A DNA stretch of 25,641 bases from a virus, in the IMG/VR virus record IMGVR_UViG_3300042475_002934, positions 1-25,641 of that record, one strand, 5' to 3'. The position numbers and the translations under genes were made by a program. A model generated the notes under the pieces. It was not told the origin of the DNA and ran no database searches. It worked only from the letters and a program-made list of their open reading frames with translations. Of this stretch, positions 15,790-17,900 are shown one piece after another; the first letter of the stretch is position 1, and every line of letters starts with the position of its first letter.

Positions 15790-15831
15790 GTGTTCACCCT
15801 TAACCAAAACCACTATGAAACGAGTTTTCAC

Positions 15832-16167
15832 ATGGATTCTTTACAGTTCGCAAGTTGCCTATTCATTAGCGAAGGCTACGAAGTACAATACAATGATGAT
15901 CGCTTACAAATGATCGTAAGAGAAAAAGGACAAACAGCACAAATCACAGTAAATTATGTTATGAGTTCCGATGAATACTTATACTTCTTAGAAGCGGATG
16001 GCATGAAAGAACATTCTAAAATCGGCATGTTCAGGGCCTTCGGTTCTTCTGAAATTGAACTCACTGTTTATAGATTACTTAGTGCATACACAAGCGCGAT
16101 CAATGATTACTTAAAGGCTAAGCAAGATATCTTAGATCGCTTAGAAAAAGAAATTAAGTACATCTAA
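15832..16167 (+). CDS. Small protein of unknown function, first gene of plus-strand cassette
   Basis: A 111-residue protein that I do not recognise. The ATG at 15832 follows AACGAG (one mismatch to AAGGAG) by seven bases; the frame continues upstream to a GTG at 15790, but this lies at the promoter -10 box. The first 60 residues look like a small alpha/beta fold (FASCLFISEGYEVQYNDDRL, then strands), and the C-terminal 40 are helical with a likely amphipathic helix (YLKAKQDILDRLEKEIKYI). It is transcribed with the methyltransferase, 83 bases upstream of it, and is one of the few genes on this strand. A role linked to modification, regulation or host takeover is possible, but nothing in the sequence decides it. 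Confidence 0.65.
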   Translation: MDSLQFASCLFISEGYEVQYNDDRLQMIVREKGQTAQITVNYVMSSDEYLYFLEADGMKEHSKIGMFRAFGSSEIELTVYRLLSAYTSAINDYLKAKQDILDRLEKEIKYI

Positions 16168-16250: not shown

Positions 16251-17900
16251 ATGAATGTGGATACTACCAAAAAATTTAATCATATCTCCCTTTGTACAGG
16301 ATACGGCGGGATTGATCTTGGACTTGCAAGAGTTTTGCCAAACCTGCGAACCCTCGCTTACTGTGAGATCGAACTTTACGCAATCGAAAACATTATTGAC
16401 AAAATGGAAAAAGGAATCATTGCGCCCGCTCCTATATGGTCGAACCTTAAAACATTCCCATTCGGCAAATTTCGTGGATGCGTGGATATCTTATCTGGCG
16501 GTTTCCCATGTCAACCTTTTTCAAGTGCTGGACGAAGAGACGGTGACACAGACCCCCGCCACTTATTCCCATTCATCAAACAAGGAATCATTGAGTCAAG
16601 ACCTGCCTTTGTTCTCTTGGAAAATGTTCGAGGGCTTGTCAGCTCAAAGCTCCAATCAGACGAATGGACAGACCCCAAAGAAACGCCCGTATTGCTTCAT
16701 GTCCTTAGAGAAATGGAAAGAATCGGTTACGAGTGCCATTGGGGCTTATTCTCTGCGAGAGAAACAGGCCTCCCCCATCTTAGGCAAAGAGTCTTTATCT
16801 TGGGAAAAAGAACAGATATTGAAACGTCTAGGCTTGAAGAGTTTTCCCGATACATTTTTCACACCGGTAAAAGCAAGTCGGATACATGCAACAGTAATGG
16901 CGAGCGTGTATGTGAATCAAAACTTAAGTATGATCAGGGCGGATATGGGAATGACAACGCAACCATTTTACTACAAAAGATTACTGCATCAGCTTTTAGC
17001 GCTGAAAAAATCCAATCCTCAAGCATTTGCACGCCTAGCGGTAGAGACCGAGAACAACAATTCTACGAACCCCCAAGAACCCTTAGTAAAGACTTGGGCA
17101 ACGCCAATGGAAAGCATAGCGCGCCGGTCGATTTATCCTCTTCAGATGGACACCTTGAACAAGAGACTAGAAGAGAACAGGCAATTAGATTTAGGGATGC
17201 AAGTACACATAGAGACAATGACAGGGCAACACTGGCAAACACCAACAAAGAGCGATGCCCTAGATGTGACAATGATAACACCGATCAAGGAAGATCAAAT
17301 ATTCGACCGAGAGAATGCGAAAGTATCAAGGCAAGTTCACTTAGCCACGATGAACGAGCAAGTAATGAATTGGCAAACACCGAAAAAGACGGATTTCAAA
17401 CAGATTGCTTATTCTCCGGAAGCGTTAGCAACATACATTCAAAACGGGCATCAAGAATCTATGCCAATTCAAGCCCTACGATCGGACACGAACAAGGATT
17501 CAATGAATTGGCAATCACCGATGAAAGGGGATTGCACCGCATACAAACTAACGCCGGAATCTGTGGATCTTGCATTAGAGAATCAAAGAATGGATATGTT
17601 AGCAATGCAAGCCCTACGATCGAACAAACTAACATTCACCGAACTACGAGCGATGAGAGAACAAGCACTAGCGAAGCCGGAATCAGAGAGAACACAGGAA
17701 GAGATCAACCTATTGAACTATCGGGAAATGTTGAATCCGAGATGGGTAGAAATGTTGATGGGGCTTCCGATTGGTTGGACTATGAAAAATTGTGTACAAG
17801 TTATACAAGTATCGTGGACGAAATAGCTTTACTAGGGAATGGGGTTGTCCCTGCAACCGCTGAACTTGCTTTTAGAATTCTATTTAGCAAGTTTCTTTAA
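16251..17900 (+). CDS. DNA cytosine-C5 methyltransferase
   Basis: A 549-residue enzyme that would methylate cytosine at C5 using S-adenosylmethionine, probably shielding phage DNA from restriction. Motif I is LCTGYGGIDLGL (14-25); motif IV GGFPCQPFSSAG (83-94) holds the catalytic Cys87; motif VI is ENVRGL (124-129); motif VIII is LPHLRQRVFILG (174-185); motif X is LLGNGVVPATAELAFRIL (527-544). Between VIII and X, where target recognition is normally encoded, the frame is hydrophilic and low in complexity, with recurring L-A-N-T-like starts at residues 282, 328, 374 and 420. Nearly all of this gene is also open in the +1 frame (see 16255-17826). No strong ribosome site precedes the ATG. The stop shares a TTAA with the stop of the convergent 71-residue gene. 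Catalytic assignment is firm; the target sequence is unknown. Confidence 0.9.
   Translation: MNVDTTKKFNHISLCTGYGGIDLGLARVLPNLRTLAYCEIELYAIENIIDKMEKGIIAPAPIWSNLKTFPFGKFRGCVDILSGGFPCQPFSSAGRRDGDTDPRHLFPFIKQGIIESRPAFVLLENVRGLVSSKLQSDEWTDPKETPVLLHVLREMERIGYECHWGLFSARETGLPHLRQRVFILGKRTDIETSRLEEFSRYIFHTGKSKSDTCNSNGERVCESKLKYDQGGYGNDNATILLQKITASAFSAEKIQSSSICTPSGRDREQQFYEPPRTLSKDLGNANGKHSAPVDLSSSDGHLEQETRREQAIRFRDASTHRDNDRATLANTNKERCPRCDNDNTDQGRSNIRPRECESIKASSLSHDERASNELANTEKDGFQTDCLFSGSVSNIHSKRASRIYANSSPTIGHEQGFNELAITDERGLHRIQTNAGICGSCIRESKNGYVSNASPTIEQTNIHRTTSDERTSTSEAGIRENTGRDQPIELSGNVESEMGRNVDGASDWLDYEKLCTSYTSIVDEIALLGNGVVPATAELAFRILFSKFL
16255..17826 (+). CDS. Overlapping +1-frame protein with four 46-residue W-x-[TS]-P modules
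   Basis: A 523-codon reading frame inside the methyltransferase gene, shifted by +1. Its last 250 residues look like a real protein rather than a shadow: W-x-[TS]-P starts at residues 281, 327, 373 and 419, exactly 46 apart, the last three with Asp seven residues on (WQTPTKSD, WQTPKKTD, WQSPMKGD). Units 3 and 4 also share a P-E-x(8)-N core and M-Q/I-Q-A-L-R-S ends. The C-terminus holds LNPRWVEMLMGLPIGWT (493-509), a motif I recall from phage proteins encoded with or next to C5 methyltransferases; it resembles methyltransferase motif IX. The third frame has stops within the first ten codons. The first ATG is four bases after the methyltransferase ATG; an internal ATG at 16951 with AGGGCGG upstream is another possible start. 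Function unknown; a target-recognition or partner subunit is a guess. Confidence 0.65.
   Translation: MWILPKNLIISPFVQDTAGLILDLQEFCQTCEPSLTVRSNFTQSKTLLTKWKKESLRPLLYGRTLKHSHSANFVDAWISYLAVSHVNLFQVLDEETVTQTPATYSHSSNKESLSQDLPLFSWKMFEGLSAQSSNQTNGQTPKKRPYCFMSLEKWKESVTSAIGAYSLREKQASPILGKESLSWEKEQILKRLGLKSFPDTFFTPVKASRIHATVMASVYVNQNLSMIRADMGMTTQPFYYKRLLHQLLALKKSNPQAFARLAVETENNNSTNPQEPLVKTWATPMESIARRSIYPLQMDTLNKRLEENRQLDLGMQVHIETMTGQHWQTPTKSDALDVTMITPIKEDQIFDRENAKVSRQVHLATMNEQVMNWQTPKKTDFKQIAYSPEALATYIQNGHQESMPIQALRSDTNKDSMNWQSPMKGDCTAYKLTPESVDLALENQRMDMLAMQALRSNKLTFTELRAMREQALAKPESERTQEEINLLNYREMLNPRWVEMLMGLPIGWTMKNCVQVIQVSWTK
17095..17646 (+). repeat. Four tandem 138-base units, diverged, dual-coding
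   Basis: Units begin at 17095, 17233, 17371 and 17509. Units 3 and 4 keep stretches of identity in register: AATGAATTGGCAA at 17364-17376 and 17502-17514, and CAAGCCCTACGATCG at 17470-17484 and 17608-17622, each pair 138 bases apart. The period equals 46 codons in both overlapping frames. Units 1 and 2 are recognisable mainly at the protein level. Confidence 0.75.

Follow-up and report, generated by a model that had tools for sequence, protein, structure and literature searches.

A split C5-cytosine methyltransferase whose two subunits are probably read from overlapping frames of one phage gene

Why is a phage methyltransferase gene open, over almost its whole length, in a second reading frame? 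The question is raised by a locus in IMG/VR virus record IMGVR_UViG_3300042475_002934, of which positions 1 to 25,641 were analysed (25,641 nucleotides; hereafter the window). Its plus strand contains the open reading frame (ORF) of a C5-cytosine methyltransferase (frame 0; 16251-17900; 549 residues), here termed α and recognized from the ORF list and Pfam, together with a +1-frame ORF, here termed β, that begins four bases later and spans 523 codons as compared with 549 (16255-17826; ORF list, permutation tests and profiles). On the sequence evidence, the two ORFs of this one gene are very probably the two subunits of a C5-cytosine methyltransferase that is split between chains. The α-chain would provide S-adenosylmethionine (AdoMet) binding and catalysis through motifs I-VIII, as well as motif X by way of a long, weakly constrained linker, whereas the β-chain would provide a target-recognition segment built of W-x-TP modules and motif IX.

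Motifs and constraint in the two frames

The α-chain retains the motif order of a C5 methyltransferase, with motif I (SLCTGYGGIDLGL, 16287-16325; named from general knowledge), motif IV with its PCQ and catalytic cysteine (GGFPCQPFSSAG, 16497-16532), motif VI with its ENV (LLENVRG, 16614-16634), motif VIII (LPHLRQRVFILG, 16770-16805) and motif X (ALLGNGVVPATAELAF, 17826-17873) all located by sequence in frame 0. Motif IX was not seen in α between motifs VIII and X. Instead, a motif IX profile finds its best match in the +1 frame, as read from L137, a contig whose catalytic domain is 100% identical to that of the window. Between motif VIII and this match (16806-17730), dN/dS (the ratio of nonsynonymous to synonymous substitution) by frame marks a weakly constrained linker in α, opposite W-x-TP or W-x-SP modules in β that start at 17092, 17230, 17368 and 17506. 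The β-chain then ends in LNPRWVEMLMGLPIGWT (17731-17781), identified by the motif IX profile with weak matches to classical motif IX. Thus the module array and conserved-looking +1 end reported in the preliminary description of this locus are both present. So is the hydrophilic character that it ascribed to the methyltransferase frame opposite the modules and ahead of motif X: the residues F, W, Y, I, L, V and M make up 18% of α residues 191-510 but 32% of β residues 186-510, which are read from nearly the same bases.

Two long open frames and a third that closes early had also been described, and the stop counts agree. Within the gene, the only +1 stops are at 16252, ahead of the β start, and at 17824 and 17833, whereas the third frame has 56, the first at 16277. 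Permuting the synonymous codons of the methyltransferase 10,000 times gave a mean of 12 and a minimum of four +1 stops, compared with the three observed, and an open +1 stretch of 523 codons was reached in none of the permutations. The reciprocal permutation of β codons gave a mean of 19.7 stops and a minimum of nine, where zero are observed.

The openness extends to relatives. These were collected as two samples from IMG/VR, the first with a DNA pattern for the β end, and hence selected on β (at least 120 loci), and the second selected on the catalytic domain (alignment A2, with seeds mostly from the first sample), from which the best 80 of at least 595 relatives were used, among them one contig that does not differ from the window in this domain. 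After removal of 11 unparsable loci, six of another layout and L196, 62 overlap loci remain. Between motifs IV and VIII they contain no +1 stop, as against 64.1 expected (lowest of 300 permutations, 46), so the homologues named beforehand as contrary evidence, with the methyltransferase intact and the +1 frame broken, were not seen in this region. Between the start and motif IV that statement stands in part: 47 of the 62 loci are stop-free, and 26 stops against 94.7 expected fall in the rest, because β starts later in some of them. In the +2 control frame, counts are at expectation from motif IV to VIII (202 versus 204.0) and near it from the start to motif IV (208 versus 228.7). Seven ordinary single-chain C5 methyltransferases (five from plasmids, the others from phages SPBc2 and SpGS-1) likewise have +1 stops at the null level; BS-TP4 and Ssp-JY39, considered as further controls, themselves show the overlap or carry their annotation on the β frame.

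Both frames are under selection, but not over the same parts of the gene. By a simplified count over four sequences (the window, L004, L218 and L005), whose pairs are not independent and which offer very few sites synonymous in both frames of the overlap, dN/dS in frame 0 is 0.13-0.24 before motif VIII; beyond it, the +1 frame has 0.48 (0.16 around motif IX) and frame 0 about 1.2, and over β residues 186-510 (16810-17784) the values are about 0.5 for +1 and about 1.2 for frame 0. Constraint in the +1 frame, suggested earlier as a check on dual coding, is seen beyond motif VIII. The switch implies that the second half of α behaves like a linker while the +1 protein carries the information. Before motif VIII, the +1 value of 0.39 is confounded by the mixing of codon positions, third positions in +1 being first positions in frame 0, and carries no weight. 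For this region, a codon permutation test of residue conservation (16 pairs) gives modest support for constraint on β, with 0.363 observed versus 0.243 expected in the +1 frame, and 0.300 versus 0.228 in the control frame.

Motifs IX and X among relatives

The preliminary description had proposed a widespread, selected dual-coding pair, in which LANT-like and W-x-TP stretches are two readings of the same DNA, and this holds across the samples. Motif IV lies in the α frame upstream of the β end motif in 97 of 124 rows (at least 120 loci of the first sample plus L004, L005, L008 and the window), the other 27 including cut-off contigs. L122 has an apparent indel and is not drawn on here. In the best 80 of at least 595 catalytic-domain loci, the motif IX profile matches best in the +1 frame 67 times and in frame 0 six times, and never in +2 or on the opposite strand; the remaining seven have no match to the profile, and four of these have fewer than 1,200 bases of contig left. 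Genome contigs contributed 28 loci, 16 of which have motif IX in the +1 frame of the catalytic ORF, while motif IV was not seen in nine and a motif IX match was not seen in three. On looser inspection, four of the nine have the +1 layout and one, L313, is in a single frame. The number of W-x-TP motifs, by a loose count, varies between loci. In Sabertooth, Upyo and Vash, β is annotated as a separate gene that at first sight overlaps α hardly or not at all, but in Sabertooth and Upyo the open β frame extends back into α, including an SGMTR segment.

The best genome-contig matches of the window's clade include L297, L299, L300 and L301, in records of Opitutae, Verrucomicrobia, Spartobacteria and Geminisphaera, which give a hint of the clade's host group. 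Another of the best matches, L298, is from Shimia.

Motif X has moved between the chains. In L033, L047, L053 and L103, α ends after motif VIII and the +1 ORF continues through motif X, while frame 0 has 15, 7, 9 and 12 stops, respectively, up to the end of β (α's own stop included). Motif X is likewise on β in L158, which has no match to the motif IX profile, and in L190, L198 and L207; in all eight relatives the α frame has accumulated stops. On a tree of 125 distinct labelled loci, eight of them with motif X in β, this state requires seven parsimony changes, four of which are forced by well-supported branches; after removal of long-branch rows (121 loci, six with motif X in β), five changes are required and all five are forced. 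These are FastTree trees only, and the direction of change is not given by them.

Motif IX varies in frame as well. In six loci the modules remain in the +1 frame, but motifs IX and X are both in frame 0; these loci have 35 +1 stops before motif IV, versus 34.2 expected, and two from motif IV to VIII, versus 15.6. Furthermore, L313 (1499-2755, from a Pelosinus metagenome-assembled genome) combines motifs I-VIII, three W-x-TP modules, motif IX and an X-like end in a single ORF of 419 residues, matching PF00145 at residues 3-188 and PHROG 1008 at 189-400 (E=7.1e-25). Both other frames of L313 carry stops over the module region. A sequencing indel was considered as the origin of this arrangement and rejected, since the old α frame would then remain open downstream, which it does not. 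L313 also has a leftover +1 ORF, consisting of a β-like N-terminal segment and one W-x-TP module followed by stops.

In database searches of each translation, as had been proposed, α matches PF00145 (E=5.1e-33, residues 9-244) and PHROG 363 (E=5e-42), and its best match in the PDB is M.HaeIII over residues 10-201. Window β, searched up to E=1, has no match in either Pfam or NCBIfam and reaches PHROG 1008 at E=0.14 only; two PHROG families without an assigned function match its end at E values of about 1e-4 and 3e-4. The β of L033, however, matches PHROG 1008 at E=1.9e-36, and a profile of window-clade β proteins matches the X-carrying β proteins at E=1.6e-52, which makes them one family. Judged by these matches, PHROG 1008, which is labelled 'DNA methyltransferase', is the β family. 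Three of four X-carrying β proteins tested match PHROG 363 over motifs IX-X (E=2e-4 to 3e-3). A profile of β with motif X (alignment A6) matches two 'DNA methyltransferase' entries in the PDB, which we take to be plant C5 enzymes; the matches, at E=0.063 and aligned over motifs IX-X, are suggestive only. A β profile from alignment A5 gave three PDB matches (E 0.14-0.75), all to unrelated proteins and hence discarded.

By place and look, LNPRWVEMLMGLPIGWT at the end of β looks like motif IX. This identification draws on the relatives with motif X on β, the loci with motifs IX and X in frame 0, L313, and the PHROG 363 matches. The recognition segment is tentatively assigned to β: the modules of L313 lie between motifs VIII and IX, and α, unlike β, is near-neutral beyond motif VIII. 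The W-x-TP modules would then occupy the position of the recognition domain, and their variable number is as expected of a recognition array.

Overlapping start codons

The two ORFs of the window start within a few bases of each other at ATGAATGTG (16251-16259), where α has an ATG at 16251 and an in-frame GTG at 16257, and β has an ATG at 16255. The site thus combines two forms, AUGUG and NUGnAUG, and α can use an ATG there. In a set of 79 loci, consisting of the window and 78 of the 80 loci given by a second β search (those left out being L296 and a copy of the window, L217), 67 have ATGTG with β on the ATG and the α frame on the GTG. In 47 loci that GTG is the sole ATG, GTG or TTG open to α ahead of motif I. 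The start contexts of the 79 include 65 distinct ones and some near-copies. Among 67 loci of the catalytic-domain sample (80 minus seven truncated and six of other layout), AUGUG occurs in 30, NUGnAUG in 15, a late internal start in three and none of these in 19. As background, a start codon lies at -4 or +2 of 9% of ATGs (1795 of 19887) in the first-sample sequences.

Such sites resemble the ambiguous start sites described in PMC9841429, where start codons of two frames likewise lie within a few bases. In that text, AUGUG sites can initiate both frames in E. coli, AUGGAUG in Thermus rnpA-rpmH is cited, and only a few natural ambiguous start sites are named. Unlike those cases, the overlapping starts here recur in many phage contigs and would serve two halves of an enzyme. 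In L166, L169 and L179, the α and β starts form GTGTG instead of ATGTG, which is the other ambiguous type studied there (PMC9841429). Overall, the overlapping starts in relatives suggest joint initiation.

A split enzyme and its alternatives

Split C5 methyltransferases as such are already known. For M.EcoHK31I, the coding sequence of the smaller subunit lies within that of the larger one, in another frame. According to PMC3404938, M.EcoHK31I (YGGCCR) has motifs I-VIII and X on its larger polypeptide and motif IX on the smaller, whereas M.AquI (CYCGRG) has motifs I-VIII on the larger and IX-X on the smaller. The window shares the M.EcoHK31I layout, an assignment for which the β end is taken as motif IX from its position, its relatives and weak profile matches. 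It differs in that β is nearly as long as α and starts four bases after it, and the likeness is one of layout. The M.AquI split between motifs VIII and IX, with motifs IX and X on the second chain, is the layout of L033, L047, L053 and L103; the window, unlike M.AquI as described there (PMC3404938), has motif X on α and two genes that overlap almost completely.

Annotated phage genomes contain the same pair. In Paenibacillus phages Shelly and Redbud, as in the window, a methyltransferase is accompanied by a +1 ORF, here noted as 'g55/g50 internal gene' and with an NPxWVExLMGxPxGW end, although β starts 184 bases after α; its product is named 'DNA methyltransferase' in Shelly and 'hypothetical protein' in Redbud. 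The search entries of PHROG 1008 and PHROG 363 both bear the label 'DNA methyltransferase' and are silent on overlap, subunits and motif IX. The earlier view that the second product has no known role therefore does not hold: α lacks motif IX and β has an IX-like end, relatives carry motif X on β or everything on one chain (L313), PHROG 1008 already labels the β family a methyltransferase, and the Shelly and Redbud records note the internal gene. In Synechococcus phage Ssp-JY39 (L328), the β frame is annotated at 1469-2584 as a hypothetical protein with the end LNPLFVEWLMGWPPGW, and one other frame is stop-free.

In the proposed mechanism, β would supply a small DNA-recognizing domain and pair with α, so that the two together reconstitute a single enzyme with the phage's own DNA as its substrate. 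Both starts would be served by one ribosome-binding site, as suggested by the start-codon overlap in the window's clade. Orphan phage methyltransferases serve to evade restriction, and the purpose here would most likely be the defence of phage DNA against host restriction. What the sequences show is that both frames are conserved and selected, how the motifs are distributed and that motif X has been exchanged between frames; that the chains form an active heterodimer, that the modules recognize DNA, that both starts are used and that the enzyme counters restriction is inferred.

Several results weigh against a split enzyme of this kind. Over the whole α gene, Shelly and Redbud each have 12 +1 stops versus 13.4 and 14.1 expected, which is the null level, though this is attributable to the late start of their β. 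Upstream of motif VIII, the residue constraint on β exceeds that of the control frame only modestly, and in the bin at motif IV it is below the null. The PHROG 1008 value for window β alone was poor, as given above; β motifs IX-X align with classical enzymes collinearly but weakly (E=0.034, probability 1.5%), and larger β alignments without motif X found no match, A5 against the classical enzymes and A4 against the PDB. The impression that the +1 product looks like a folded protein is not borne out by AlphaFold2, which gave a mean pLDDT (predicted local distance difference test) of 56 both for window β (A4, 62 rows; predicted template modelling score, pTM, 0.28) and for the compact relative L057 (A5, 66 rows; pTM 0.23). 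In L175 and L177, α ends just after motif VIII and β has no motif X, and in L175 motif X is on a separate downstream frame-0 ORF; a simple two-chain model leaves these loci unexplained, and either a division of the enzyme into three or a broken α gene could lie behind them. Finally, the target-recognition domain (TRD) of M.EcoHK31I is reported in PMC3404938 as predicted in the larger subunit, unlike the recognition segment assigned to β here.

Of the other explanations, programmed +1 frameshifting after motif VIII, yielding a single fused chain instead of two subunits, fares best but is improbable. The parts lie along the DNA in the order of one enzyme, a single shift gives a complete chain in the four relatives L033, L047, L053 and L103, and L313 is such a chain without any shift. 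In the window, however, one shift would lose motif X. Nor does frameshifting need an open +1 frame upstream of the shift, yet the stretch from motif IV to VIII has none of the 64.1 stops expected, and β ORFs begin at recurring start positions.

Still less probable is that β is a separate protein with another job, such as host take-over, which merely shares its DNA with the methyltransferase. Its lack of a Pfam match, its long N-terminal extension and the fact that the α-β complex is so far a prediction would fit such a protein. A separate job does not account for a missing motif IX in one chain and an IX-like end in the other, for a motif X that switches chain at least four times, or for the single-chain form in L313 and the PHROG 363 matches over motifs IX-X.

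That the +1 frame does not code and merely reflects base composition or the codons of the methyltransferase is the default view of annotation, phage C75C1 for instance having only the methyltransferase annotated, but we give it hardly any credence: the permutation nulls are exceeded while the control frame is unaffected and single-chain enzymes stay at the null, +1 dN/dS is below 1 where that of frame 0 is near 1, and the end motif and start sites are conserved. An out-of-frame selfish insertion is just as implausible, since β spans nearly the whole gene, catalytic motifs included, and stays without a Pfam match at E values up to 1 (hence no HNH domain), whereas the ShiLan domain of mycobacteriophage methylases, which offers the same setting of a second frame inside a phage methylase gene, is according to PMC11855218 an insertion coding a hidden HNH homing endonuclease and β is read as part of the enzyme.

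We return to the split methyltransferase, for which the balance tips slightly towards a broader claim: a phage-wide family of heterodimeric enzymes, both halves of which would come from one segment of DNA, with a conserved ambiguous start (AUGUG or NUGnAUG) and one ribosome-binding site through which the subunits may be made together, with motifs IX and X moving between frames, and with a recognition array lying opposite a mere linker. Within the literature covered, the near-complete overlap, the overlapping starts, the shifting of motifs IX and X from one frame to the other and the wide spread among phages seem to be new; no openly licensed PMC paper was found whose title or abstract opening describes this phage pair.

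As for its surroundings, the pair is a plus-strand unit amid long ORFs of the minus strand, and a plus-strand ORF of 125 residues lies just upstream (15790-16167), with an ORF in a similar place in L004. The gene (16251-17900) is 100% identical to part of IMG/VR contig 3300042350_003432 (55,818 bases); this virus, or one very close to it, is therefore also represented by a longer record.

If the split-enzyme reading is true, what was a mystery overlapping gene becomes a testable enzyme, and the TRD prediction for M.EcoHK31I may merit a second look. The family would supply, from nature, a great many very long same-strand overlaps in which selection can be measured and constraint changes frame along the gene, and probably also a case in which ambiguous start sites are put to use in nature. 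Many phage genes now annotated as complete C5 methyltransferases would encode only half an enzyme, the other half being concealed in the +1 frame, and α genes expressed alone would fail.

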